From: Caulobacter sp.
GTDB taxonomy: Bacteria; Pseudomonadota; Alphaproteobacteria; Caulobacterales; Caulobacteraceae
Assembly (NCBI GenBank): GCA_026225565.1
Contig: JAMFTA010000076.1
Location: forward strand, 1 to 34,438
Direction of reading: 5' to 3'
Length of the DNA stretch: 34,438 nt
Part shown: positions 19,722 to 34,414 of the stretch, piece by piece
Position numbering within the stretch: the stretch's first letter is position 1
Layout: each line of letters opens with the position of its first letter
Translations under genes and position numbers: made by a program
The notes under the pieces: generated by a model
Told to the model about the DNA's origin: nothing
Databases searched by the model: none
The model's input: only the letters and a program-made list of their open reading frames with translations

Positions 19722-22475
19722 CTATAGGCGCTCGCCGGTCAATTTGGCGTTGCCGAAAAAGCCCATCTTCACCTTGCCGGAAAGCTTGTCGCCCTCGATC
19801 TGCACGTCATATTTGAGCGTCAGCGATACGGGCTTTTCCACCTTTAGGTCCCATTTGAGCGTGGCGCCGGCGACGATCCCCTCGAAATCCTGGTCGCCCA
19901 TGTCGCTGTAGAGCGTGCCGGTGAGGATCTGGCCGTTGGTGGCGAAGCGTCCCTTCATCGCCTGGGGGCCCATGGGCGTGGACAGGACCATCTTCCACAG
20001 GCCATCGACGGCTGTGGCGGGCGCCGGCTCCAGCGGTGGGGCGGCCTGGGGCTCGGCGGCTTCGCCGATCGGCGTCGCGTCCGGCTCGCTTGCGGTCACA
20101 GCCGTCGGGCGGTCCACGGCGGCGGCCTGCGGTCCGGCGCCGTGGCCAGAGGCCTTGCGCAAAATCGTGCGCCCCTCGATCAGCTCGAGGATTTTGGACG
20201 GGGTGAGCGGCAGGTCGAGGCAGCGGGCGCCGAACGGAGATAGCGCGTCGGCGATGGCGTTGACCAAGGTCGGCGGGCCGATGATGCAGCCGCCTTCGCC
20301 CACGCCCCGAAACCCGCCCTCGGACTTCGATGGGGTGGAGGCGTGAACATGCTCGAAATCCGGCACATCCGAGATGGCCGGCAGCATATAGTCCTTGTAG
20401 GTGACCGCGGTCGGATTGCCTCGGGCGTCGAAGCTTACCTCCTCCAGCAGCACCGAGCCGATCGCCTGGGCCAGCCCGCCCGCGATCTGCCCTTCGACCA
20501 CGGCGGGATTGATCACCACGCCGCAGTCTTCGCTGGAGATCCAGCGCTTGATCGCAACAAAGCCGGTCTCGGCGTCGATCTCGACAATGCAGGCGTTGGC
20601 CGCGCTGGTGAAGGTGACGGGCGGCGGCGTATAGCGATATTGGGTCTCCAGTCCAGCCTGGATATCGGGCGGCAGGCGATCGGGCTCGCCATAGGCCACC
20701 TCGGCGATCTCGCGCAGACTGCGCGTCATTTCCTCGGCGCCGGCGACGTAAACCACGCCATTCTCGAGCCGAACATCGTCGGGGTTGGCGTTGAGCAGAT
20801 GGGCGGCGACGCGCTTGACCTTGTCGAGCAGCAGCTTGGCCGCCTTCATCGAGGCGCCGCCGCCGGCCACCCCCTGGCGGCTGCCGGCCGCGCCCGGGCC
20901 AAAACCCCCGCGCGAGCTATCCCCCTCGAACACCGACACATCTTCGTAGGGAACGCCCAGCTGGTCGGCGATCACCTGGGCCATGGTGGTTTGAGTCCCG
21001 TGGCCCTGCGAATGGGTGCTGAGCGTGGCGGTGACCTTGCCGGTGGGCTCGATCCGGATCTGCGCCAGCTCGCCGCTCATCACGCCGATGCTGCCGGTCG
21101 ACGCGGTCGGCTCGATATAGGTGGCGATACCCAGCCCGAGGTAGCGCCCCTGCTTGCGCGCCGCCGCCTGTTCGGCGCGGAAGGCGGGCACGTCCAGGGT
21201 CTCCAGCAGCTTGTCCAGGCATTCCGCCGGAGTGATGTCTTCTAGCTGGATGCCCAGGGAGGTTGTGCAGGGCTGGTCGGCCTTGGTGATGAGGTTGCGG
21301 CGGCGTATCTCGATGGGATCGACGCCGATCTGCCGCGCGGCGATGTCGAGCATGGTCTCGCGCGCCAGCGACTCCATCGCCCACGGCCCGCGATAGGCGG
21401 CCAGGCCCACCGTATTGGTGTACCAGCCCTTGGTGTAGAAGCCGAAGGCCGGCATCTTGTAGGCCGCCCACATGAACATCTGCACCGCGATGTTGCAGTC
21501 GGGGCCGTGGGGATAGGCGCCGTTGTTGAGGTCATAGTCGGCGTGCGAGGCCAAGAGCTTGCCGTCCGCGTCGAAGGCGATGCGCAGGGTGATCTCCTGC
21601 TCTCGCGCCTGATTGGCCGCGGTCAGGTTCTCGAGCCGGTCTTCGGTCCATTTGAGCGGCCGTCTCAGTATCATGCCGGCCGCGATCACGGCCATCTCCT
21701 CACGCCAAGGCTGAACCTTGAGGCCGAAGGAGCCACCGACATCCTTGGCGAGCACGCGGATGCTGATGTTCGGCATCCCGAAGGCCTGCGACAGATAGCG
21801 CGCCACCAGATGCGGGCTCTGGCAGGCGATATAGACGGTCAGTTCCTCGTCGCCCTGCTGATCGACCACGACGCCGCGGGTCTCCATCGGCGACTGGGAG
21901 ACGCGCTGGTGGGTGATCGTGCCGGTCACCAGGTGCGGCGCGCTCGCCAGCAGCGCCTCCAGGTCCTCGTCTTCCTCGACGCCCAACACGGCTGCGGCGT
22001 TCGACTCGCTGCCGGGGTGTACGAGCGGGCCGGTCTTGGCGTCGTCGATGGTGACGACCGGATCTTCTTCCTCATAGTCGATCGCCACCAGGCCGGCCGC
22101 GTCCTCGGCCAGATACCGATCCTGGGCGATGACCATGACCACCGGATCGCCCACATAGGCCACCCGGTCCGTCGCCAGCGGCGGGATCTCGATCCCCGGC
22201 AGGGTCAGATAGAAGGTGAGCATGTCGATCTTGAACCGCGACAGGTCCTTGGCCGTCAGGATGGCGTGGACTCCCGGCATGTCGCGGGCCACCGAGGTAT
22301 CGATCAAGGCGATGCGCCCGCGCGCGATCGGGCTGCGCACAAAGGCGACATGGAGCATACCGGGCAGAACGATGTCGTCGACAAAGGTCCCGCGGCCGGT
22401 CAGCAACCGGCCGTCCTCCTTGCGCGGCACGCGCTGACCGATGAAGCGCGCGGCGCCGATCTGAGGGGCGGTCAT
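19722..22475 (-). CDS. Molybdenum hydroxylase large subunit (xanthine dehydrogenase/aldehyde oxidase family) with extra C-terminal domain
   Basis: The 917-residue protein binds the molybdenum-pterin cofactor. Family marks are Gly-Arg-Gly-Thr-Phe-Val-Asp-Asp near the N-terminus, Val-Gly-Gly-Ser-Phe-Gly, Gln-Gly-His-Gly-Thr and the catalytic Glu727 in Gly-Val-Gly-Glu-Gly-Gly. The active-site loop reads Ala-Tyr-Arg-Gly-Pro-Trp instead of the Ala-Tyr-Arg-Cys-Ser-Phe-Arg of CO dehydrogenase, so it is not a true CoxL. After a Pro/Ala-rich linker (~780-820), a ~95-residue beta-rich domain (from Val-Asp-Gly-Leu-Trp) is added that typical large subunits lack. It overlaps the 2Fe-2S subunit gene by 4 bases. 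It hydroxylates an unknown N-heterocycle or aldehyde. Confidence 0.9.
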   Translation of the reverse strand: MTAPQIGAARFIGQRVPRKEDGRLLTGRGTFVDDIVLPGMLHVAFVRSPIARGRIALIDTSVARDMPGVHAILTAKDLSRFKIDMLTFYLTLPGIEIPPLATDRVAYVGDPVVMVIAQDRYLAEDAAGLVAIDYEEEDPVVTIDDAKTGPLVHPGSESNAAAVLGVEEDEDLEALLASAPHLVTGTITHQRVSQSPMETRGVVVDQQGDEELTVYIACQSPHLVARYLSQAFGMPNISIRVLAKDVGGSFGLKVQPWREEMAVIAAGMILRRPLKWTEDRLENLTAANQAREQEITLRIAFDADGKLLASHADYDLNNGAYPHGPDCNIAVQMFMWAAYKMPAFGFYTKGWYTNTVGLAAYRGPWAMESLARETMLDIAARQIGVDPIEIRRRNLITKADQPCTTSLGIQLEDITPAECLDKLLETLDVPAFRAEQAAARKQGRYLGLGIATYIEPTASTGSIGVMSGELAQIRIEPTGKVTATLSTHSQGHGTQTTMAQVIADQLGVPYEDVSVFEGDSSRGGFGPGAAGSRQGVAGGGASMKAAKLLLDKVKRVAAHLLNANPDDVRLENGVVYVAGAEEMTRSLREIAEVAYGEPDRLPPDIQAGLETQYRYTPPPVTFTSAANACIVEIDAETGFVAIKRWISSEDCGVVINPAVVEGQIAGGLAQAIGSVLLEEVSFDARGNPTAVTYKDYMLPAISDVPDFEHVHASTPSKSEGGFRGVGEGGCIIGPPTLVNAIADALSPFGARCLDLPLTPSKILELIEGRTILRKASGHGAGPQAAAVDRPTAVTASEPDATPIGEAAEPQAAPPLEPAPATAVDGLWKMVLSTPMGPQAMKGRFATNGQILTGTLYSDMGDQDFEGIVAGATLKWDLKVEKPVSLTLKYDVQIEGDKLSGKVKMGFFGNAKLTGERL

Positions 22476-22960
22476 GCCGGTTCCTCTCCCGCCGGAGCGC
22501 CCGCCAGCCTGCGAGCGGCGCGCCGGATGCCCTGATAGCCAGTGCAGCGGCAGATATGGCCCGACAGAGCCGCGAGCAGCGTATCGGCGCTTGGCCGCTT
22601 ATCGTCACCCGTCAGCGCGGCGAGCGTCATCACCACGCCGGGCGTGCAGAAGCCGCATTGCAGGCCATGCTCGTCGCGCAAGGCCTGTTGCGCCGGATGC
22701 AAGGTCCCGTCGGGCGCGGCGAGGCCCTCGACCGTGGTGATCTCGCAGCCGTCCGCCTGCACGGCCAGCATCAGACAGGCGCGCACCGCGCAGCCGTCGA
22801 CGATCACGGTGCAGGCGCCGCAAACCCCATGCTCGCAACCGAGATGCACCCCGGTGTAACCAGCATCGATGCGCAGGAAGTCGCCCAGGACCAGCCGCCC
22901 CTCCACGGTCGCCCGATGGGCCTGGCCGTTGATGGTGACCTCGATCCGATGCTCACTCAT
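22472..22960 (-). CDS. Molybdenum hydroxylase small subunit, two [2Fe-2S] clusters
   Basis: The 162-residue protein has a plant-type ferredoxin N-terminal domain with Cys42, Cys47, Cys50 and Cys62, and a C-terminal four-helix domain with Cys102, Cys105, Cys137 and Cys139 (Cys-Gly-Phe-Cys and Cys-Arg-Cys-Thr-Gly-Tyr). All eight cluster ligands are present. It passes electrons from the molybdenum site to FAD. It overlaps its neighbours by 4 bases on each side (ATGA-type), as in an operon with fixed stoichiometry. Confidence 0.96.
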   Translation of the reverse strand: MSEHRIEVTINGQAHRATVEGRLVLGDFLRIDAGYTGVHLGCEHGVCGACTVIVDGCAVRACLMLAVQADGCEITTVEGLAAPDGTLHPAQQALRDEHGLQCGFCTPGVVMTLAALTGDDKRPSADTLLAALSGHICRCTGYQGIRRAARRLAGAPAGEEPA

Positions 22961-23826
22961 GCCGCCTGCCTCGCATCCAGCGCCTCTTGGAGCGCGCGCG
23001 CGAAGATTCGTCGCCCAACGGTGCGCCGATAGTCCGCGGTGGCGTGGTGATCGTCGAAGGGTGCGGTGTCGGCGATCGCAAGCTCAGCGATCCCCCGCGC
23101 GTCGAGCCCCGCGATCGATTGGCCGAGCAGCGCCGCCTCCGCCTGCCTGGCCTTGATGGGGGTCGGTCCCATGCCGAACCAGGCCAGGCCCGCGCGGGCG
23201 ATGCGGCCTTGCTCCACCGTCAGCGCGCCGATCAGGCCGACCAGGGCGAAGTCGCCCGGCCGCCTCGCCACCTCGCGAAACAGGTTGATGGTGTCGGGCG
23301 GCCAGTCGGGGAAATGGATCGCGGTGACCAGTTCGTCGGGCTCCAGCGCGGTGGCGTAGGGGCCGAAATAGAGCGCCTCGGCGGCGATGCGCCGGACGCC
23401 CCGCGTCGAGCGCGCCTCCACCGACGCGCCCAGCGCCACCGCGGCCGCCGGCAGCTCGGCCGCCGGCTCGCCCAAGGCGATCGAGCCGCCAATGGTCCCG
23501 CGATTGCGGGTCTGGTGGTGCCCTACATGGCGTGTCGCGGTGAGCAGCAAGGGCAGGGCGTTGGCCAGTGTCGGATCGGCGATGACTTCGTTCTGGCGCA
23601 TGACCGGCCCGATGCGCGTGCCGCCGTCGGCGCGGGCGGCGCCCTTGAGCGCAGCGATCCGGTTGATGTCCACCAGGATGAACGGCTGGCTCATGCGCAG
23701 GGCGAGCAGCGGCATCAAGGTCTGGCCGCCGGCCAATACGGTGGCCCCGCCGCCCGCCTCGGCCAGCCGCTCGCAAACCTCGTCGATGGTCTCGGGGGCG
23801 ATATAGTCAAAGGGCGCGGGCTTCAC
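22957..23826 (-). CDS. Molybdenum hydroxylase medium subunit, FAD-binding
   Basis: The 289-residue protein starts with GTG at 23826, overlapping the stop of the coxG-like gene by 4 bases; the same frame is open upstream but gives non-family sequence. It begins Lys-Pro-Ala-Pro-Phe-Asp-Tyr and carries the FAD motifs Ala-Gly-Gly-Gln-Thr-Leu-Met-Pro (~residue 35) and Thr-Ile-Gly-Gly-Ser (~residue 112), as in CoxM and related FAD_binding_5 subunits, with a CO_deh_flav_C domain at the end. It takes electrons from the iron-sulfur subunit and passes them to an acceptor. Confidence 0.94.
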   Translation of the reverse strand: MKPAPFDYIAPETIDEVCERLAEAGGGATVLAGGQTLMPLLALRMSQPFILVDINRIAALKGAARADGGTRIGPVMRQNEVIADPTLANALPLLLTATRHVGHHQTRNRGTIGGSIALGEPAAELPAAAVALGASVEARSTRGVRRIAAEALYFGPYATALEPDELVTAIHFPDWPPDTINLFREVARRPGDFALVGLIGALTVEQGRIARAGLAWFGMGPTPIKARQAEAALLGQSIAGLDARGIAELAIADTAPFDDHHATADYRRTVGRRIFARALQEALDARQAA

Positions 23827-24587
23827 CGCTTGGCTTCCTCGCCCAGCCGCGCCAGCAGCGTGGGGTCGAGCACCACAATGGGCGCCGCCGTCCGCCGGCC
23901 GAACTCGAAGGCCGCCGCCGCGAGGATCACCAGCAGCAGGCCGATGGCGAGACCCATCCAATCCGATTGACCGCCGCCCTTGGCGTGCCCGATCAGGTAC
24001 CCGACCAGCGCGGCGACGACCAGCGCCAGGAGCCATGTCGTGGGGAGGCCCGGTGACGGTCGGACGTGGGGCGCAGCGGCCGCGTTTGCTTTCGCTCCCC
24101 TCCCGGCCGACGCCGACACACCCGCCGGCGGCGCGGCGGCCTGGGTCGCAGGCGCGGCGATCTCGCCAAATTGCTCAAAGAACTTGGCCGCAAGTTGCTT
24201 GGCGGTCGCATCGATGATCGGGCCGCCGAGCTGCGCCAGCCGGCCGCCGACCTGGGCGTCCACCTCGTAGGACAGCAGCGTGCCGCCATTGTCGTCGGCG
24301 AGCCGAACCTTGGCGCCGCCCCTGGCGAAGCCGACCGTGCCGGCCTGACCTTCGCCACTGATGGTGTAGCTGTTCGGCGGATCGAGCTCAGAAAGCGTGA
24401 CGGCGCCGGCGAAGCGCGCGCCGATCGGCCCGATCTTGATCGCTACCGTCGCCTTCAGCCGTCCGTCCGGCTCCTTCTCGAGCGACTGGCAGCCTGGCAC
24501 GCATCGCCTCAGGACCTCGGGATCGTTCAGCGCCTCCCAGACCCTTTGGCGGGGGGCGGCGATCCGCTGATTGCCGGTCATTTTCAT
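23823..24587 (-). CDS. CoxG-like SRPBCC protein with C-terminal membrane helices
   Basis: From the ATG at 24587 the protein has 254 residues. The N-terminal ~145 residues are a CoxG-type START/SRPBCC domain (Trp-Glu-Ala-Leu-Asn-Asp-Pro-Glu-Val-Leu and Val-Pro-Gly-Cys-Gln-Ser-Leu). A low-complexity Ala/Pro linker follows, then two hydrophobic helices (~180-202 and ~210-228). CoxG of carboxydotrophs is needed to anchor CO dehydrogenase to the membrane, so this one may tether the hydroxylase. It is the first gene of the operon. An in-frame ATG at 24638 has no better signal. Confidence 0.85.
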   Translation of the reverse strand: MKMTGNQRIAAPRQRVWEALNDPEVLRRCVPGCQSLEKEPDGRLKATVAIKIGPIGARFAGAVTLSELDPPNSYTISGEGQAGTVGFARGGAKVRLADDNGGTLLSYEVDAQVGGRLAQLGGPIIDATAKQLAAKFFEQFGEIAAPATQAAAPPAGVSASAGRGAKANAAAAPHVRPSPGLPTTWLLALVVAALVGYLIGHAKGGGQSDWMGLAIGLLLVILAAAAFEFGRRTAAPIVVLDPTLLARLGEEAKR

Positions 24588-24906
24588 GATGCGCTGCGTT
24601 CTTTCCCGTAGCCCGACCCAGCCGTTAGCATGTCGCAAGGGCCGGCGTCAGCCCGGAATTTGGCGGTCGCTCAGCTGGCTCCGGGCAGGTTCTCGCCGCC
24701 AACGCCGCCCCGGCTGCTGGATGCGAAGGCCGATCAAGGCTCCAGCAGGGCCGAGCCCGCCGTTGTCAGGCCGATTTTGCTGAGTGGCGGACCCTGATGG
24801 CGTAAGCCAGAACGGGGTAGGGGACAGCGCGTCCTCTCGATGCAAGTTGCGGTTGGACTGGCGGCGCCCGTCCGAGCTAATGCGTGTTGTCTAGGTAGGG
24901 ATTCTC
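24588..24906. other. Divergent promoter region between the hydroxylase operon and the amidase
   Basis: This 319-base G+C-rich stretch should hold promoters for both sides. I found no clear -35/-10 pair, operator or hairpin. A 57-codon plus-strand frame from ATG 24630 gives a Pro/Ala/Arg-rich product with no known motif and is not called. Confidence 0.4.
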
Positions 24907-26520
24907 GTGAAAACACTTGTCCTGATCTTGTCCTGCACCGCCCTGTGCCAGCCCGCAGCGGCGCACGCCTATGATGTCCAAGAAAAAACCATCGCCGAAC
25001 TGAAAGCCGATCTTTCCGCCGGCAGGACCACGTCCGTGGAGTTGGTGCGCCTCTATGAGCAAAGGATCGCCGCCTTCAATCCGCAACTGCACGCCGTTAT
25101 CGCCTTGAACCCGGACGCGATCGCCCAGGCGGAGGCGGCGGACGCCGCGCGCAAGGCGGGTCGGCCGGCTGGAATGCTGGCGGGCATCCCGATCCTGATC
25201 AAGGACAATGTAGAATCCGCTGACAACATGGCGACCACGGCCGGCTCGATAGCGCTGAAGGACAATGTCACCCATCGGGATGCTCCTCTCGTGGCGCGGA
25301 TGCGAGCCGCCGGCGCCATCATCCTTGGCAAGAGCAATCTCTCAGAATGGGCGAACATCCGTTCAGCCCATTCGATCAGCGGCTGGAGCGGCGTGGGCGG
25401 CCAGGCGCGCAACCCCTATGCGTTCGATCGCAACACCTGCGGCTCCAGCGCCGGATCGGGGGCGGCCGGAGCCGCCAGCCTGGCGGCGGCGACCATCGGC
25501 ACGGAGACGGACGGATCGGTCACCTGCCCCTCGGCCATCAACGGACTGGTCGGCCTGAAACCCACTGTCGGCCTGGTTTCGCGCACCCACATCGTGCCGA
25601 TCAGCCACAGCCAGGACACCGCCGGCCCCATGGCCCGCTGCGTCGCCGACGCGGCGGCGATCCTCGCCGTGATCGCCGGCGCCGATCCAGCCGATCCCGC
25701 CACTGCGGCGGCGGACGCCAAGAAAACGGACTATCTCGCCGTCTTGAGGCCGGATGCGCTGAAGGGCGTGCGTATCGGCGTTCTGCGTTACGCCTCCGAC
25801 TTCCACCCGGAAACCACCCGCGTGTTCGAGCAGGCTCTGGCCGCCTTGACCGCGGGCGGCGCCACCCTGGTGGAGATCAAGGCGTTTCCCGGCGACCATG
25901 ACATCGGCAAGCTCGAGCATCTGATCCTGATGACCGAGCTAAAGGCCGATCTGAACAGCTACTTGGCGACCACCGCCGCGCAGCAGGTTTCCACTCGCAC
26001 CCTCGCCGACCTCATCGCCTTCGACAAGGCCCACGCCGATCGGGAAATGCCCCTCTTCGGCCAAGAGCTGTTCGTCGAAGCGGAAGGGACAAAGGGCCTC
26101 GACGACCCCGACTATCTCAAGGCGGAGGCCGACGCTCACCGATTCGCCGGACCCGAAGGCATCGATAAAATGCTGACGGACAATCAGGTCTCGGTCTTAG
26201 TGGCGCCGACGCTCGGGCCAACCTGGCTGATCGATCCAGTGCTGAAAGATCGCTTCGTTGGCGGGGGCGCGGGTCAGGCGCCCGCCGTCGCCGGCTATCC
26301 CCATCTGACGGTGCCCATGGGACTGGTGGACGGTTTGCCGGTGGGGCTGTCGTTCATTGGCGCGGCGTGGAGCGACGCGCAACTGCTCGCCTATGGCTAC
26401 GCCTATGAACAGGCGTCCCACGCCCGTCGGCCTCCGCGCTATCTGCCTACGGCGGCCATTGAAAACGAGGCATCCTGGCGCGGCGTCGATGACGCCGATG
26501 GCAAGGGCGGGACAAATTAA
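24907..26520 (+). CDS. Secreted amidase, amidase-signature family
   Basis: The 537-residue protein starts with GTG at 24907, opening a Sec signal peptide that probably ends at Ala-His-Ala. It contains the Ser-cisSer-Lys triad of the family: Lys99 in Gly-Ile-Pro-Ile-Leu-Ile-Lys-Asp-Asn, cis-Ser180 in Cys-Gly-Ser-Ser-Ala-Gly-Ser, and nucleophile Ser204 in Glu-Thr-Asp-Gly-Ser-Val-Thr-Cys-Pro. This form is close to peptide amidases and related exported hydrolases, which deamidate peptide C-termini or other amides. It is not GatA: it is exported and no gatB or gatC is near. It is divergent from the hydroxylase operon. Confidence 0.93.
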   Translation: MKTLVLILSCTALCQPAAAHAYDVQEKTIAELKADLSAGRTTSVELVRLYEQRIAAFNPQLHAVIALNPDAIAQAEAADAARKAGRPAGMLAGIPILIKDNVESADNMATTAGSIALKDNVTHRDAPLVARMRAAGAIILGKSNLSEWANIRSAHSISGWSGVGGQARNPYAFDRNTCGSSAGSGAAGAASLAAATIGTETDGSVTCPSAINGLVGLKPTVGLVSRTHIVPISHSQDTAGPMARCVADAAAILAVIAGADPADPATAAADAKKTDYLAVLRPDALKGVRIGVLRYASDFHPETTRVFEQALAALTAGGATLVEIKAFPGDHDIGKLEHLILMTELKADLNSYLATTAAQQVSTRTLADLIAFDKAHADREMPLFGQELFVEAEGTKGLDDPDYLKAEADAHRFAGPEGIDKMLTDNQVSVLVAPTLGPTWLIDPVLKDRFVGGGAGQAPAVAGYPHLTVPMGLVDGLPVGLSFIGAAWSDAQLLAYGYAYEQASHARRPPRYLPTAAIENEASWRGVDDADGKGGTN

Positions 26521-27002: not shown

Positions 27003-27055
27003 GGGACGTTTCGGCGGTTTGTTGAGCCGTCGAATCCGCAATGCAAGGGGGGGAC

Positions 27056-28915
27056 ATGTCGAACGTCGCGGGCAAGGCCTATGGCATGAACGTCATTACG
27101 CCCATGCGGCCGTCGATGACGTGGCTCAACACCTTCCTGTTCATGGTGTCGCGGGCGTTGCCGGCAACCTTGTCGGGTCTTCTCGGCCTCTCGCTTATTC
27201 ATTTCGCAAGGTGGGTGATGATCCGGCGCGATCAATGGCCCCAACGTGGCCAGGGACCGCAGCCGCTCAAGAATGACTACATGCTGTTTTGCAGCAATTT
27301 TAACGGCACCTGGGATCAATATATCGACGCATTCGCGGACGGAATTCCAGGAGGTCTCGACCTTTTTTGGTATTCGAGCACCAAATATCCAAACTCAATC
27401 CCGATCACGCCGTTTAAGAATTACATCCGCGGCAACCAGATCGACACCAACTATTACTATAACGCCACACCGGGGAGCGGCCAGCGCGATATAAAGGCGG
27501 CGCTGAAGCTATATGCAGCTCTGTGTGAGGTGAACGTCAAAGCTGACGATTCGACCCTCGCCTTAGCCTATCGCCGGGTGCTGGACGCCGTACAGGGCGG
27601 GCTCGGAGCGCCGGGCTACGCGCCGGTCGCCAGTTGCGACACCAGCGCCGCTGACCGACATCGATGCGCGGCGGTGCGCGCCCGCTGGGGCGCGGAGGGC
27701 AAGGGGCCGCCCAGAGCCGTACAGATGATCCATCCGATCGATCCACAGGTGGTCGCGGGGAGCGCCGCGAACGAGCCGGGCGCGACGACGGCGGTGCGCG
27801 ACGCCGTCGCCGAGGTCACCTTTGGCGCAGCCCGGATCGAAGCGCCGATCCTGAAGCCCGTCCAAGTCGTCCCGCCTCCCCTCATCGCCGAGGAGAAGGC
27901 GACGCCGCCCGCCGGCGTCGGCGCGCCTGCCGAGACGAAAACAGCCGGCACTAATTTAGACGGCGGCCACTATTTCTTCACCGGCCTGGTTCCGATCTGC
28001 AATGTCGGCATCGTCGAGCATGAGGCGATGAAAAGCTCGCCGATCCATATGGTGCGCGAAGCGCTTGAGACCCTGCCGACCGCGCTGCAATCACATGCCT
28101 CCGAAGAGGTGGGCATACAGAGCCCGTTCGCGCGATCGCTGCGCACACACTTCGCTAGGCTGGTGGTGGTGGACCAGCCTTATTTCAACGGGCGCGACCA
28201 TGCTGACGCGTTGGTCTCAGCCGTGAAGGGTACGGATTTGCTGGCGGCCGAACCGGTGGACGCCCTCGCTTGTCCCTATGTGCTGGTAGTCATCGATTTT
28301 GATCCGGGCGAGGCGAGCGGCCAGGGAGAGCCGCGGTCCTATTTCGAGGAGTTGTGGCGGCTCATGGCGGTCGAGCTGACCGCCGTATTCCGTTACGCCT
28401 ATGGCTTTTCCAATGTGGTCGACGCGACGAGCTTCGCCGACATGATGATCGATTGTCAGGTCAAGACGACGATGCCGTTCAACGACTATTGGGTCGGCGC
28501 ACCTCCGTTTCCGTCTTTGTCGAGTGGGGCCTTGTTGGCGGTTCCGATCGCGGGCGTGGTCGCGGGATTGGGCTTGGCGCTCATCGTCGTCTTGATGATT
28601 CATTGGCCTTGGTGGCTGGCGGCTTCGCTGCCCATCCAGTTCGGCCTGATCGGCGTCCTGATCGACTATGCATGGGTCATGCGGCAAGGGGCGAAGCCGT
28701 TCCCGGCCGCGCCGAACGCCACGCTTCGCCATATTCTGAAGGCGCTACACTTACAGCAGGCCTTCACCCGTTTCGTCTCCAAGCGGCAGGACGCCGATTC
28801 GGTCGGGCTGGGCGCCGCCTTCCGGCAGTTTCTCGCCGACCACGATCCCCCCAATCTGAACGCGCCGACCCAACCGCCTGGAGTCATTCGCAGTCCGTTC
28901 GCAGGAGCCTTCTGA
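27056..28915 (+). CDS. Uncharacterised membrane protein in a DyP peroxidase/P450 operon
   Basis: The 619-residue product starts at the ATG at 27056, just after a strong G-rich ribosome binding site; an ATG at 27041 is less likely. A hydrophobic stretch (~20-55) is followed by a soluble domain with Ser-Asn-Phe-Asn-Gly-Thr-Trp-Asp-Gln-Tyr-Ile-Asp (80-91). A Pro/Ala-rich linker leads to a second soluble domain with Thr-His-Phe-Ala-Arg-Leu-Val-Val-Val (364-372) and Phe-Asn-Gly-Arg-Asp. One or two membrane helices lie near 492-540, then a tail. The two soluble parts may be repeats of a ferredoxin-like alpha/beta fold related to DyP domains, but that is a guess. I do not recognise a named family. 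It overlaps the DyP gene by one base. Confidence 0.8.
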   Translation: MSNVAGKAYGMNVITPMRPSMTWLNTFLFMVSRALPATLSGLLGLSLIHFARWVMIRRDQWPQRGQGPQPLKNDYMLFCSNFNGTWDQYIDAFADGIPGGLDLFWYSSTKYPNSIPITPFKNYIRGNQIDTNYYYNATPGSGQRDIKAALKLYAALCEVNVKADDSTLALAYRRVLDAVQGGLGAPGYAPVASCDTSAADRHRCAAVRARWGAEGKGPPRAVQMIHPIDPQVVAGSAANEPGATTAVRDAVAEVTFGAARIEAPILKPVQVVPPPLIAEEKATPPAGVGAPAETKTAGTNLDGGHYFFTGLVPICNVGIVEHEAMKSSPIHMVREALETLPTALQSHASEEVGIQSPFARSLRTHFARLVVVDQPYFNGRDHADALVSAVKGTDLLAAEPVDALACPYVLVVIDFDPGEASGQGEPRSYFEELWRLMAVELTAVFRYAYGFSNVVDATSFADMMIDCQVKTTMPFNDYWVGAPPFPSLSSGALLAVPIAGVVAGLGLALIVVLMIHWPWWLAASLPIQFGLIGVLIDYAWVMRQGAKPFPAAPNATLRHILKALHLQQAFTRFVSKRQDADSVGLGAAFRQFLADHDPPNLNAPTQPPGVIRSPFAGAF

Positions 28916-30594
28916 TGAGCGTGCTCGATCTCGCCGACATCCAGGGCGGCGTTCTGCGCGCCTACGGCCGCCAAGGCTTTCCCAAGGCCCGCTATTTCTT
29001 CCTGACAATCCGCGACGCCGTCAAAGGCCGCGCCTTTGTCGAGACGCTGCGCCCCCGCATCACGACGGCGGCGCGTTGGAAGAACCCGGAACGGGGCGAG
29101 GCGCTGCTGCGCACGCGAAACCCGCGGGTGAAGGATATCGTGCGCGCCGAGGGCGTGCCGGACTATCCGGGCGAGGTCCAGCTTATGAAGCCGAAGGTGG
29201 CGATCAATATCGCCTTCACCTTCTATGGCCTCTACGCGCTGGGGGTGCCGACGCGCACCCTCCGCGCCATGCCTGACGAGTTCATCGACGGCATGGAGCA
29301 GCGCGCCCCCATACTCGGCGATGACCTGTTCCTCGACAAGCGCGACGCTGTCTGGAGGCGCTCGCGCGACGATACCCGGGTGCACATGTTCATCTCGATG
29401 AACGCCGAGATGAACGACGACGGCACGCCGATCGCCGAACTGGAGGCGGAGACGACCGCCCTAAAGCAGCTATGCGCCGACAGCGGCGGCGGCGTCGTCC
29501 TTCTCTCGGGCACAGGACCGGACGATGCCGAATGGCAAGAGGTTTCAGCGGTGCTCCGCCCAGATGACGGTGTCATGTCTCCGACCAACAAGGAGCATTT
29601 CGGCCTTTCCGACGGTTTCGGCGATCCGGTGTTCGAAGGACAGTTTTCCGGGGAGGCCGAGCGTCTGCGCATGATCGGCGGCGGCAAGGTGTTGCCCAAC
29701 ACTCAGTGGGCGCCGCTGGCGACCGGCGAGTTCCTGCTTGGGCATCCGGATGAGGCGCAAGAGATCCCGGGCGCGGCCATGCCCATCGAATTCAGCCGCA
29801 ACGGCACCTTCATGGCCTATCGCAAGCTCCATGAGAATGTCGAAAGCTTCACCGCCTATATCAAGCAGATCGGCGCGCGCTATGCGCAGCTGAATGACGT
29901 GCCGCAGACCGAGGCTGAGGATACGGTCACGGCCAAAATGGTTGGACGCTGGAGCGATGGAGTGCCGCTGATGGCCGCCCCGACCCATGCCGACTGGGTG
30001 ACCTTCAATGAGGAGCTGGCGGCCGCCCATGCGGCGGGCGACAAGCCCAAGCTCGCGCAGATCGCGCTGCGCTTCACCAACTTTCTCTACCGCTCCGATC
30101 AGACCGGGGCGGTCTGTCCCATGACCTCGCACCTGCGCCGCGCCAATCCGCGCGATACGCTGGACCCGCAATTCGCGTCCCCCAATCCGAAGAACTGGGA
30201 CGGCTCCGCCCTCGTCAATCGCCGCCGCATCCTGCGCCGCGGCCTGCCCTATGGCGAGGTCGATCCTGCGGCGCCGGACGATAAGGGCGAGCAGGGCATC
30301 ATCTTTCTGGCGATCTGCACCAGCCTGTTTCGGCAATTCGAGTTCCTGCAACAACAGTGGATGCAATACGGGCTGGACTTCAACGCGGGCAGCGACACCT
30401 GTCCCATCGTCGGCAACCACGATCCAGAGCATGACCCCAAGCTGGTGATCGTCACCGATCCCGATGGCCCGCGCCGACCGTTTGTGTGCGGCTGTATTCC
30501 TCAGCTCGTGGAATGCCGCGGCGGGGATTACTTCTTCATCCCCAGCATGACCGCCCTGCGCATGATCGGCATGGGGATCGTCGATCCGACATGA
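28915..30594 (+). CDS. DyP-type heme peroxidase
   Basis: The 559-residue protein starts at the ATG overlapping the previous stop (TGATG). The distal Gly-x-x-Asp-Gly motif is Gly-Leu-Ser-Asp233-Gly-Phe-Gly; the proximal heme ligand is His406 in Cys-Pro-Met-Thr-Ser-His-Leu-Arg-Arg-Ala-Asn-Pro-Arg-Asp, both canonical. The protein is longer than compact DyPs of ~300-350 residues and belongs with the longer forms. There is no signal peptide, so it acts in the cytoplasm unless carried by its partner. DyPs use H2O2 to oxidise dyes, phenols, porphyrins or other donors. The physiological donor is unknown; the flanking membrane protein and P450 suggest a joint pathway. Confidence 0.93.
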   Translation: MSVLDLADIQGGVLRAYGRQGFPKARYFFLTIRDAVKGRAFVETLRPRITTAARWKNPERGEALLRTRNPRVKDIVRAEGVPDYPGEVQLMKPKVAINIAFTFYGLYALGVPTRTLRAMPDEFIDGMEQRAPILGDDLFLDKRDAVWRRSRDDTRVHMFISMNAEMNDDGTPIAELEAETTALKQLCADSGGGVVLLSGTGPDDAEWQEVSAVLRPDDGVMSPTNKEHFGLSDGFGDPVFEGQFSGEAERLRMIGGGKVLPNTQWAPLATGEFLLGHPDEAQEIPGAAMPIEFSRNGTFMAYRKLHENVESFTAYIKQIGARYAQLNDVPQTEAEDTVTAKMVGRWSDGVPLMAAPTHADWVTFNEELAAAHAAGDKPKLAQIALRFTNFLYRSDQTGAVCPMTSHLRRANPRDTLDPQFASPNPKNWDGSALVNRRRILRRGLPYGEVDPAAPDDKGEQGIIFLAICTSLFRQFEFLQQQWMQYGLDFNAGSDTCPIVGNHDPEHDPKLVIVTDPDGPRRPFVCGCIPQLVECRGGDYFFIPSMTALRMIGMGIVDPT

Positions 30595-30606
30595 GGAGCC
30601 GATGCG

Positions 30607-31965
30607 ATGGCGTTGCTGAACCTACCTATCGCGCTGTGGCGCCGTCTTTTGCTGCTCGTACAAGGCTGCAGCGCCTTGATTTTGCTGCTGTGGAGCGGCG
30701 TGGCGGCGCTCCTGAGCGGCGGCCCGATCGGCAGCAAGATCGCCGCAAGCCTGACCTCACCCGTAGGTCAACGCCGCGTCTTCGCCCTGTTGCGGCTGAT
30801 CCAGCCCAATCTGGTGCTAAAGCGCGTATTGGTTAAGGCCTACGCCAATACCGGCACCGCCTTGGTCACCCGGCGCGAGGACGTCACGGAGGTGCTGACC
30901 CGTGACGCAGACTTCGGCGTGGTCTACGCGCCGCGGATGGAGATGATCACCGGCGGTGAGAACTTCTTCCTCGGGATGCAGGATACGCCGCGCTACACCC
31001 GCGACACCTCGAACATGAAGCTGGTGGTGCGGCGCGACGATGTGCCGGAAATCGTCGTTCCCCTGGCTTCCGCCGCCGCGCACACCTTGGTGAAGGCCGC
31101 CGGGAGGCAGATCGACGTGCCCCAGATGTTGACCATCCCCGTCGCGGCGGAGCTGCTGGACCGATATTTCGGCACGCCCGGTCCATCCATGAACGAGATC
31201 GCCGATTGGACGACGACCTTGTTCTGGTACCTTTTCATCGACCTCGCCGCCGATCCCGTGCTCGACGCCAAGGCAAGGGACGTGTCGGCCAGGTTCCGGG
31301 CCTGGCTCGACACCCTGATCGCAGAGCGGAAGGCCGGCGGCCAGGATCGGGAGGACGTGCTCGGCCGCTGCCTGAAGATGCAGGCGGGGGGCGCTCCTGG
31401 AATGGCCGATCTGGATATCCGCAACAACTTGATCGGCCTTTTGATTGGCGAACTGCCGACCACCTCGGCGGCGGCCAATTTCGCCCTCGACGAACTGCTC
31501 GATCGTCCAGACGCCTTGGCTGGCGCACAAGCCGCGGCCCGGGCGGGGGATGATGAGCGCCTGGCCGCGTACATATTCGAAGCCTTGCGCTTCCGGCCGT
31601 TGAATCCGGTGATTTATCGCCGCGCGTTGCGCGATACACACATCGCCGACGGCACGCTGCGCGCGCGTCATGTACCCAAGGGTCGGATGGTCATGGCGTC
31701 TAATCTTTCGGCGATGTTTGATCCTTTAGCGGTGCCCGACGCCGGGCGTTTTCGCATCGATCGCCCGTGGGAGACCTACATGCTGTGGGGCTATGGGATG
31801 CACGCCTGCTTCGGCGCTCACCTCAACCGAGCCACCCTTCCCGCCATCCTGAAGCCGCTGCTGGCGAAACCGGGCTTGCGCCGGGCAGCGGGCGCTGCAG
31901 GTCGCATTGACGCTGGGGGAACGCCTTTTCCAGTCCACTTCCATCTCGAATTCGAAAGTCCCTGA
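30607..31965 (+). CDS. Cytochrome P450 with hydrophobic N-terminal anchor and atypical I-helix
   Basis: The 452-residue protein lies 12 bases after the DyP stop, with GAGGAG as ribosome binding site. Heme ligand Cys401 is in Trp-Gly-Tyr-Gly-Met-His-Ala-Cys-Phe-Gly (Trp replaces the usual Phe), and the ExxR pair is Glu325/Arg328. In the I-helix the usual Ala-Gly-x-Asp/Glu-Thr-Thr reads Gly-Glu-Leu-Pro-Thr-Thr (281-286), so the acid is replaced by Pro284 while the Thr remains. Residues ~12-36 are strongly hydrophobic, unusual for bacterial P450s, which are mostly soluble. No ferredoxin or reductase gene is adjacent. It may use peroxides or an unlinked redox partner; its substrate is unknown. 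Confidence 0.88.
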   Translation: MALLNLPIALWRRLLLLVQGCSALILLLWSGVAALLSGGPIGSKIAASLTSPVGQRRVFALLRLIQPNLVLKRVLVKAYANTGTALVTRREDVTEVLTRDADFGVVYAPRMEMITGGENFFLGMQDTPRYTRDTSNMKLVVRRDDVPEIVVPLASAAAHTLVKAAGRQIDVPQMLTIPVAAELLDRYFGTPGPSMNEIADWTTTLFWYLFIDLAADPVLDAKARDVSARFRAWLDTLIAERKAGGQDREDVLGRCLKMQAGGAPGMADLDIRNNLIGLLIGELPTTSAAANFALDELLDRPDALAGAQAAARAGDDERLAAYIFEALRFRPLNPVIYRRALRDTHIADGTLRARHVPKGRMVMASNLSAMFDPLAVPDAGRFRIDRPWETYMLWGYGMHACFGAHLNRATLPAILKPLLAKPGLRRAAGAAGRIDAGGTPFPVHFHLEFESP

Positions 31966-32241: not shown

Positions 32242-33744
32242 ATGTCTGATATTAGAGAAAAAATCGTTACATGGGGCGAAAAAGATCGTGAAGTCGGGGC
32301 TATTGTCTACCAACGCGCGGGAAAGCATCTTGAGGGCGCTCTTCTGAATGCGTATCGAGTTATAGATCCATCACTAAAAGAATTGCCTCGAGATGTATTT
32401 GAAAACGAGAAGAGAAAATTCGCTTTTATAGCGAAGGGGAATTTTCCGTCGGAATATTTTGATCAACAAGAAATAATTACAACAAATATTTCAAATAGTC
32501 TCGATTTCGCGACATATCTCAGTAAGACTTACGCCGCCTATGCGGCGGGCTTGGCGTCGGGTTTGGTCAAAGAGAAGGGTTGGGTTGAGAAAAATTCCGA
32601 CGAACTGATGCTCAGCCTGATGAAGTCCGTGTTCTCCGACGCCAGCGTTGTCATGTTTTATTACTTTCAGCTCCTGAACGCGAAAGCTGACGAAGAGCGC
32701 GCGGTAATTGAAGCTGAGCGCCGGCGTGTTGCGGACGAGCAAGACACCGTCGTCGCCGCGCTCGCCGACAGCCTAAAGCGGCTGGCAGAGGGCGATCTTA
32801 CGGCACATATCGCCGTCCCGTTCAACGGACGCTATCAGCAAATCAAGGACGACTTCAACGCTGCGATCGACAGCCTGCGTGAAGCGATGAAAGCGATCGC
32901 ATCGACAACAGGCGGACTTCGTTCCGCCTCCGACGAAATCGCCGCCGCCTCGGAAGATCTATCTCGGCGCACCGAGCAACAGGCCGCCGCCCTGGAGGAG
33001 ACTGCAGCCGCGCTCGATGAGATCACCGCGACGGTCAAGCGTAGCGCCGGCGGCGCTAAGCAAGCGTCCGCCGCCGCCTCTGGCGCCACGGCGGACACGA
33101 CGCGGTCGGGTGAAGTCATGCACGGCGCCATGGCCGCGATGGGCGAGATCGAGCGCAGTTCAAAGGAGATCATCAGCATCATCGGTGTGATCGACGAGAT
33201 CGCTTTCCAAACCAACCTGCTAGCCTTGAATGCCGGTGTCGAAGCGGCGCGCGCCGGCGACGCAGGCCGTGGGTTCGCCGTCGTCGCCCAGGAGGTCCGG
33301 GCTCTGGCCCAGCGATCCGCCGATGCCGCCAAGGAAATCAAGGTCCTCATCGCCAACAGCGCGGCCCAGGTCGAACGCGGAGTCCGCCTGGTGGATGACA
33401 CCGGCCACGCGCTAACCGGCATAGTGAGCAAGATCACCGAGATCGACGCCCTGATCTCCGAGATCGCCCAATCCTCTCAGGAGCAGGCCAGCGGGCTCAA
33501 TGAGGTGAATACCGCCGTCAACCAGATGGATCAGGTCACCCAGCAAAACGCCGCCATGGTGGAAGAGGCGACGGCGTCAGCGTCCACCATGAGATCCGAG
33601 GCGGCGGAGTTGGAAATGCTGGTCTCCCGATTCCAAACAGGCGAACTTGCGCATTCGAGCGCCCGCCCGGATACGGCTCGGGCTGGCCGGCATTCGCCCT
33701 CCCGCAGCCCGGTCGCTCCGGCCCAGGTCAAGATCGCGTCGTAG
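32242..33744 (+). CDS. Soluble methyl-accepting chemotaxis protein with cytoplasmic sensor domain
   Basis: The 500-residue protein has no membrane helix. Residues ~1-150 are an all-helical sensor domain whose length and helix pattern (ending Phe-Ser-Asp-Ala-Ser-Val-Val-Met-Phe-Tyr-Tyr-Phe) resemble globin-coupled sensors. It has only one His (29), early in the chain, and none where the proximal heme ligand should be, so heme binding is doubtful. A coiled coil and HAMP domain (~150-225) follow, then the MCP signalling domain with the tip Glu-Ile-Ala-Phe-Gln-Thr-Asn-Leu-Leu-Ala-Leu-Asn (~317-330). It signals to CheA/CheW in a cytoplasmic array. The 5' third is A+T-rich and the rest G+C-rich. 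Confidence 0.88.
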   Translation: MSDIREKIVTWGEKDREVGAIVYQRAGKHLEGALLNAYRVIDPSLKELPRDVFENEKRKFAFIAKGNFPSEYFDQQEIITTNISNSLDFATYLSKTYAAYAAGLASGLVKEKGWVEKNSDELMLSLMKSVFSDASVVMFYYFQLLNAKADEERAVIEAERRRVADEQDTVVAALADSLKRLAEGDLTAHIAVPFNGRYQQIKDDFNAAIDSLREAMKAIASTTGGLRSASDEIAAASEDLSRRTEQQAAALEETAAALDEITATVKRSAGGAKQASAAASGATADTTRSGEVMHGAMAAMGEIERSSKEIISIIGVIDEIAFQTNLLALNAGVEAARAGDAGRGFAVVAQEVRALAQRSADAAKEIKVLIANSAAQVERGVRLVDDTGHALTGIVSKITEIDALISEIAQSSQEQASGLNEVNTAVNQMDQVTQQNAAMVEEATASASTMRSEAAELEMLVSRFQTGELAHSSARPDTARAGRHSPSRSPVAPAQVKIAS

Positions 33745-34072: not shown

Positions 34073-34414
34073 ATGGGACGATCACTCCACAAACTGACCG
34101 CGATCCAAGCGGCCAAGCTTAAGGTGCCTGGCCGACACTCCGATGGCGGCGGCCTCTATCTCTCAATCGATGATAGTGGGCGGCGACGTTGGGTATTCAT
34201 CTACACGCGTGGCGCCAAGCGCACGGAATTGGGCCTTGGCGGTGGACGCGACCTGACTCTCGCCAACGCACGTGTCGAGGCGGCAGCATTCCGGAATATC
34301 CTCGCCGAGGGTGTCAACGGCGGTGCAAAAGTAGGCCAGTGGGGCGGAGTAAAAACAGGCCAGGTAAGTGGTCTTCTTCGTCCGTCGAGCGGCGATGCGC
34401 GGAGCCATGCGTAG
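34073..34414 (+). pseudogene. Tyrosine-type site-specific integrase, N-terminal DUF4102 domain, interrupted
   Basis: The ATG follows GGAGG at good spacing. The first ~80 residues form the DUF4102 arm-binding domain of P4-like integrases: Leu-Thr-Ala-Ile-Gln-Ala-Ala-Lys-Leu, Asp-Gly-Gly-Gly-Leu-Tyr-Leu, Arg-Arg-Trp-Val-Phe-Ile-Tyr and Leu-Gly-Leu-Gly-Gly. At 34312 the sequence becomes the terminus of an insertion sequence, and the last ~33 codons to the TAG/TGA region are IS-derived (Gln-Trp-Gly-Gly-Val-Lys-Thr-Gly) rather than integrase. The core-binding and catalytic Arg/His/Tyr domain would lie beyond the insertion, outside the window. The protein as read cannot recombine DNA. Confidence 0.7.

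Follow-up and report, generated by a model that had tools for sequence, protein, structure and literature searches.

In hydroperoxide metabolism, the partner of a heme dioxygenase is a P450 in fungi and a catalase-related protein in Nostoc (PMC13049297). Here, we analyzed an operon with a comparable pairing of heme enzymes, which is located on contig JAMFTA010000076.1 of Caulobacter sp. (assembly GCA_026225565.1); the whole stretch of 34,438 nucleotides is referred to as the window. The operon comprises three genes, encoding a first protein (P1) with two domains termed A and B, a DyP-type peroxidase and a cytochrome P450. The A/B proteins and the DyP, usually together with a second heme enzyme, are almost certainly a conserved functional unit.

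As a working analogy, the heme dioxygenase pairs of fungi and Nostoc as well as the coral catalase-related enzymes appear to come closest, although by fold the window system is no member of these groups. In the fungal dioxygenase-P450 fusions (linoleate diol synthase, PpoA type) and in the cyanobacterial 10S-dioxygenase (10S-DOX) with its catalase-related lyase, a peroxidase-type heme enzyme is likewise paired or fused with a P450 or a catalase-related protein, and a membrane or lipid context would be a further common feature. In contrast to these systems, the DyP of the window lies outside the peroxidase-cyclooxygenase superfamily, the A/B family is an obligatory partner and the window system is known from its genes alone. 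The catalase-related allene oxide synthases and hydroperoxide lyases (coral cAOS and cHPL; Nostoc) resemble eight loci described below, at which a catalase-fold protein is linked to an oxidizing heme partner, whereas the window itself contains no catalase-fold member.

Conservation of the unit

Carriers of the unit were searched for with the P1 protein or a profile of domain A, without reference to DyP or P450, and the open reading frames (ORFs) of the relatives are mechanical calls. An A-type match is present in 8/299 genomes of the order, 9/385 of the class and 22/398 of the phylum, each time including the window's own genome. In every carrier besides the window (34/34), the A-like domain adjoins a DyP or is fused to it. 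The first-pass annotation, which had proposed the three genes as one unit, wanted this proposal to be judged by whether the first gene occurs unlinked elsewhere; due to the complete linkage, this is not the case in these carriers. Since the A-DyP pair recurs in independently found genomes, the operon arrangement is more than chance.

The second heme enzyme is variable. Among the loci of the tree set, 37 (window included) contain a P450, either fused or at most 1.5 kb away, eight a catalase-fold protein and six neither, with L033 of the latter ending at the contig end; at L039 the contig ends before the DyP. Thus, the three genes do belong to a conserved unit, but this unit is not strictly P450-dependent. 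The P450, the A-like domain and the DyP are found in one single ORF in L040, L042 and L043 (1568-1661 amino acids), in L095-L098 (1408-1535 amino acids) and also in L119 and L120. Further fusions join DyP and P450 (L081) or DyP and catalase (L103). Such single chains are the strongest sign that the parts act together. In the open-access papers searched, no account of a unit or fusion joining a DyP with a P450 or with a catalase came up; their novelty is provisional.

Outside the Pseudomonadota, the only record encountered is a plasmid of Granulicella tundricola (Acidobacteriota; L019, 12001-14630), which carries A-B-DyP without a P450; genes for KatG and a Fur-type regulator lie downstream at a distance of 4 kb. 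At L046 (8000-9780, genome G034), katG lies directly upstream, and the matches contain apparent stops (TAA in A, TGA and TAG in B); this unit may be decaying, or the matches may span separate genes or reflect assembly errors. Upstream of all four fusion genes of L095-L098 lies a gene of the class III adenylate/guanylate cyclase type, which also encodes TPR repeats, and a Crp-like regulator gene lies near the unit of L104, which makes a cyclic-nucleotide control of the unit possible.

The first protein

P1 had been annotated as an unknown membrane protein. This holds insofar as P1 exceeds the cut-off of no Pfam family, has no match in NCBIfam and contains a hydrophobic hairpin at the C-terminal end; its actual make-up, however, is a fusion of two ferredoxin-like domains. 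A and B are paralogues, as revealed by a profile comparison (probability 98.6, E 5e-16). Domain A is 47-76% identical to the separate A genes of relatives and domain B 24-55% to their B-type genes. In 18/18 relatives of the named genome collection, P1 is matched by separate genes A (~220-290 amino acids) and B (~320-380 amino acids), and the gene order is A-B-DyP-P450 in all cases with a P450 and a sufficiently long contig. The nearest relatives have an overlap of the A stop codon with the B start codon in a different frame (ATGGCTAAT in L024 vs. GGCACTAAT in the window), whereas the window has an open frame and lacks the start codon of B. The fusion looks real. A sequencing error is disfavored, since the replacement affects the very start codon of B.

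Both domains were modeled separately, since a combined MAFFT alignment placed B on top of A. The AlphaFold2 models display a ferredoxin-like order of strands and helices in both (predicted local distance difference test scores of 75 for A and 82 for B) and a hairpin near the end of B. Among 65 A/B-like domains, His49 is conserved in 58, Arg52 in 60, Gly84 in 63 and Tyr89 in 60. The order of the secondary structure elements fits the dimeric alpha+beta barrel (ABM) type, and many of the top Foldseek matches of domain A in the PDB belong to this group, with E values of 0.07 or worse and none of them significant. For domain B, the Foldseek search yielded no PDB fold match.

The DyP and the P450

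The description of the second gene product as a canonical DyP proved correct. It matches DyP_N above the cut-off and DyP_C just under it, whereas TIGR01413 is reached with 1.3e-19 yet below its cut-off; against solved DyPs the value is 8.5e-37, with 8re3 as the nearest chain. The membership in the superfamily is seen both by sequence match and by motif, with the Asp of GxxDG, the distal Arg and the proximal His kept in the alignment within GLSDG, RNGTFMAYRKL and TSHLRRANPRD, respectively. The protein begins with MSVLDLADIQGG and has no Tat-type signal. It shares the fold family and these catalytic residues with the D-type-like DyPs (fungal, 8re3), but is ~100 amino acids longer than the nearest solved chain and stands in obligatory linkage with the A/B family, usually with a second heme enzyme in addition. 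To our knowledge, for most bacterial DyPs neither the natural substrate nor the role is known.

The P450 passes PF00067 (47.7 bits, cut-off 22.8) and contains the ExxR motif and the Cys heme loop. It is atypical, as had been noted before, in its hydrophobic N-terminus and in its I-helix, where GELPT is found instead of the usual xGx(D/E)T. Here, the acid of the canonical acid-alcohol pair is replaced by Pro, while the Thr is kept. The 36 linked P450s form one branch (support 100/99) apart from eight other P450s, a small control set of which seven stem from the window's own genome. Pro occupies the acid position in 31/36 linked P450s and in 0/7 of the own-genome controls. For peroxide-using P450s, a loss of the acid-alcohol pair has been described (PMC9112060; PMC10988616).

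CYP74 and CYP152 had been brought up as P450s that act on or with peroxides. Of 280 solved matches of the window P450, the top 60 include no chain named as CYP152 or CYP74, and for CYP74 the comparison covers these solved matches only; membership in either family was not adopted. With the CYP152 peroxygenases, the window P450 has in common a disrupted acid-alcohol pair and the lack of a dedicated redox-partner gene. The I-helix of CYP152 has an Arg/Pro arrangement, whereas the window P450 has L-P-T with the Thr kept, a hydrophobic N-terminal segment and ordinary bacterial CYPs as nearest solved relatives. We know of no tested precedent for Pro-Thr at this position. Within the operon, no ferredoxin or reductase gene is present, in agreement with the first-pass annotation. 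As an argument this says little and was not used as evidence, because the same genome encodes at least ten further P450s and also yields nine Fer2 matches.

Catalase-fold and di-heme partners

In the eight catalase-fold proteins found in place of the P450, the region of the proximal Tyr is kept. In L093, L101 and L103, the distal His is replaced by Asn and the distal Asn by Thr (residues assigned by alignment to catalase motifs); these three are therefore hardly ordinary catalases. They also differ from cAOS, which keeps distal His and Asn (PMC5617202). The distal His is kept in the partners of L044, L094 and L100. Searches of solved structures with the catalase-fold partners gave a weak catalase match or none.

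A reverse search of the phylum sample (398 genomes) with the window P450 gave 18 matching genomes, its own included, and the A-DyP unit is present in 15/18. In the remaining three, L117, L118 and L121, a DyP is missing from the vicinity; instead, a RoxA-like di-heme gene (NF040606) lies close upstream of the P450. Since NF040606 passes its cut-off in 37/396 genomes, three such neighbors out of three are very unlikely by chance. This pair of di-heme protein and P450 is possibly a second two-enzyme oxidation unit. A fourth RoxA-like gene adjoins the A-DyP pair of L092. RoxA-related di-heme proteins of P. aeruginosa are PA2077, an oleate 10S-dioxygenase, and PA2078, a diol synthase, with heme motifs spaced by 245 and 235 residues, respectively (PMC4496055). 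Set against these values, the spacing of the RoxA-like neighbors is 232-236 in 3/4 and 313 in the fourth. Relatives of the di-heme family of PA2077/PA2078 (FadCcps) adjoin P450s of the window's clade as well as an A-DyP pair, whereas the partner of the window P450 is a DyP and the window's genome has no NF040606 match.

Proposed function and alternatives

Genes related to lipids are found beside several of the loci. The DyP and P450 genes of L089/L090 are separated by a patatin-like phospholipase gene, and a FadL-type outer-membrane transporter gene follows. A FadL gene precedes L034, patatin genes are located beyond L031 and L036, and lipase neighbors are LCAT-like at L080 and Tle1-like at L079. 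Furthermore, one GST-like family is encoded directly after the P450 at four loci (L022, 12974; L032, 13180; L037, 12755; L087, 11663). As an observation on its own, the patatin-like phospholipases of L031 (12794-15519) and L036 (12791-15556, minus strand) stand beside a TPR-S sensor protein, reminiscent of defence or signaling systems, and the patatin of L089 scores below the cut-off of a CBASS phospholipase model.

As the best explanation, to which we give an even chance, lipid-like substrates would be oxidized with peroxides, or their hydroperoxides rearranged, at the membrane. The product of the operon would be a membrane-associated multi-heme oxidation unit, in which the A and B subunits, fused here and provided with a membrane hairpin, hold DyP and P450 together or feed substrate to them. 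The DyP would consume H2O2 or organic hydroperoxides, or generate an oxidized intermediate. The P450, lacking the acid for proton delivery in O2 activation, would perform peroxide-level chemistry on a hydrophobic substrate, fatty-acyl or other, acting as a hydroperoxide isomerase or lyase or as a peroxygenase, and would need no dedicated redox partner; its place is taken by a catalase-fold heme protein in other lineages. An oxidized lipid or the detoxification of hydroperoxides had already been considered in the first-pass annotation. The loss of the I-helix acid, the catalase-fold substitutes, the di-heme neighbors and the patatin, FadL, lipase and GST genes agree with this circumstantially, while complex formation, substrate class, type of reaction and the role of A/B are what we infer. 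More tentative is a new class of bacterial oxylipin-type machinery, in which an A/B scaffold would join a lipid-oxidizing DyP to an interchangeable hydroperoxide-rearranging P450 or catalase-fold enzyme; this is conceivable, with the balance of probability against it.

Several points weigh against the lipid reading. The lipid genes flank a minority of the about fifty loci, some of them close relatives, and several of the neighbors were picked for the Pfam scan after reading the sequences, with close relatives counted together. A less biased tally of 88 neighbors contains four GSTs, three patatins and two FadL proteins among 126 families, and the operon's own neighbors, an amidase and a chemotaxis protein, are uninformative on lipids. 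A lipoxygenase was found in none of 20 carriers, in a search run without a positive control. Within the P450 clade, 5/36 members have D/E or another residue at the acid position, the Thr is retained in most, and the use of peroxide is not proven by a Pro at the acid position alone. The fold matches of domain A stay below significance, and we know of no case of a DyP acting as a fatty-acid dioxygenase.

A general peroxide defence is rather unlikely. Here, the DyP with an A/B docking protein would remove H2O2 or hydroperoxides of lipids at the membrane, a second removal route would be provided by the P450 or catalase-fold protein, and no specific oxidized product would be made. The katG genes at L046 and L019, the latter with a Fur-type regulator, would fit such a defence, as would the distal His kept in three catalase-fold partners and the GST genes after the P450. 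On the contrary, distal His and Asn are lost in several other partners, a P450 would be an odd choice for bulk removal, and the sporadic spread (22/398 genomes) is unlike a core defence. The replacement of the acid in 31/36 and the single chains that unite P450, A/B and DyP also argue against an ordinary NAD(P)H-dependent monooxygenase, which would use a ferredoxin encoded elsewhere while DyP and A/B scavenge H2O2 from uncoupling or act on the product. In addition, the catalase-fold substitute of some lineages is not expected to accept ferredoxin electrons in that role. Although the Fer2 matches, the other P450s of the genome and the retained Thr speak for such an enzyme, it is quite improbable.

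We think it even less probable that another hydrophobic compound (isoprenoid, polyketide or hydrocarbon) is made or broken down, with A/B being enzymes of the ABM type and tailoring oxidation falling to the heme enzymes. Among the best fold matches of domain A (E 0.07-0.8) are polyketide cyclases, hydroxynitrile lyase and muconolactone isomerase, a RoxA-like family member adjoins four loci, and a GMC oxidoreductase and an alpha/beta hydrolase are encoded beside L101; yet these fold matches are non-significant, and no polyketide synthase, nonribosomal peptide synthetase or terpene synthase is present among the 25 most frequent of 126 neighbor families. Very improbable is a handling of iron or heme in the manner of EfeB-type DyPs, where the unit would modify heme or a siderophore and thereby release iron. 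Such a role is suggested by iron-transport or TonB genes near the P450-less A-DyP loci L019 and L020 and by an ABC solute-binding protein after the unit of L028. However, iron genes are not prominent among the neighbors at most loci, the P450 or catalase-fold partner would be left unexplained and the window DyP lacks a Tat-type signal.

Irrespective of the lipid reading, the A/B proteins are a new family with a strong functional link, and their obligatory partnership, the natural P450 fusions and the swap of P450 and catalase-fold protein give a concrete handle on the role of a bacterial DyP. If the lipid reading is true, a third route to such chemistry would exist besides the fungal dioxygenase-P450 and the cyanobacterial dioxygenase-catalase pairs, and the self-contained P450 fusions would be of practical interest. 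The oxylipin-type machinery, if true, would give DyPs a defined biological role beyond dye oxidation.

Genetic organization of the window

The row of three genes with its 1-nt overlap and 12-nt gap, as described previously, was confirmed at the level of the ORFs (Table 1). For P1, an ATG at 27041 is also possible; the start at 27056 is favored, because a GGGGGG run resembling a ribosome-binding site precedes it and the MSN start is as in the relatives. Wide gaps set the operon apart from its neighbors on both sides.

Table 1. Coordinates of the operon, its domains and motifs, its neighbors and the pairs of RoxA-like gene and P450 (positions in the window unless a locus is named).
Feature	Position	Strand	Remarks
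P1 gene	27056-28915	+	619 amino acids
Domain A	27056-27700	+	ferredoxin-like (b-a-b-b-a); SNFNGTWDQY motif
His49 of domain A	27200-27202	+	
Arg52 of domain A	27209-27211	+	
Linker	27700-27950	+	A stop and B start codon lost; junction only in this locus
Domain B	27950-28912	+	A paralogue; hydrophobic hairpin ~28523-28690 (hydropathy), then helical tail
DyP gene	28915-30594	+	559 amino acids; TGATGA, 1-nt overlap with P1 gene
Catalytic Asp233 of DyP	29611-29613	+	assigned by alignment
Distal Arg303 of DyP	29821-29823	+	assigned by alignment
Proximal His406 of DyP	30130-30132	+	assigned by alignment
P450 gene	30607-31965	+	452 amino acids; 12-nt gap after DyP gene, GGAG in gap
I-helix GELPT of P450	31447-31461	+	Pro284 replaces acid
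Heme loop WGYGMHACFG of P450	31786-31815	+	Cys401
ExxR of P450		+	in FEALRF
Amidase gene	24907-26520		upstream neighbor; ends ~535 nt before 27056
Methyl-accepting chemotaxis protein gene	32242-33744		downstream neighbor
RoxA-like di-heme cytochrome c peroxidase gene with its P450 neighbor, L117	5341-8699		beside clade P450, without DyP
RoxA-like di-heme cytochrome c peroxidase gene with its P450 neighbor, L118	3719-8159		beside clade P450, without DyP
RoxA-like di-heme cytochrome c peroxidase gene with its P450 neighbor, L121	6675-10109		beside clade P450, without DyP

The promoter and terminator scan gave nothing exceeding chance, and no tRNA is present in the window. A molybdenum hydroxylase operon of the xanthine/CO dehydrogenase type is located at 19722-24638 on the minus strand and encodes the large, the small (2Fe-2S) and the medium (FAD) subunit; the CoxG-like gene at 23823-24638 belongs to it, and the Fer2 match inside this operon is not a P450 ferredoxin. 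Near the contig end, a short ORF (34073-34414, plus strand) encodes only the arm DNA-binding domain of a tyrosine integrase.

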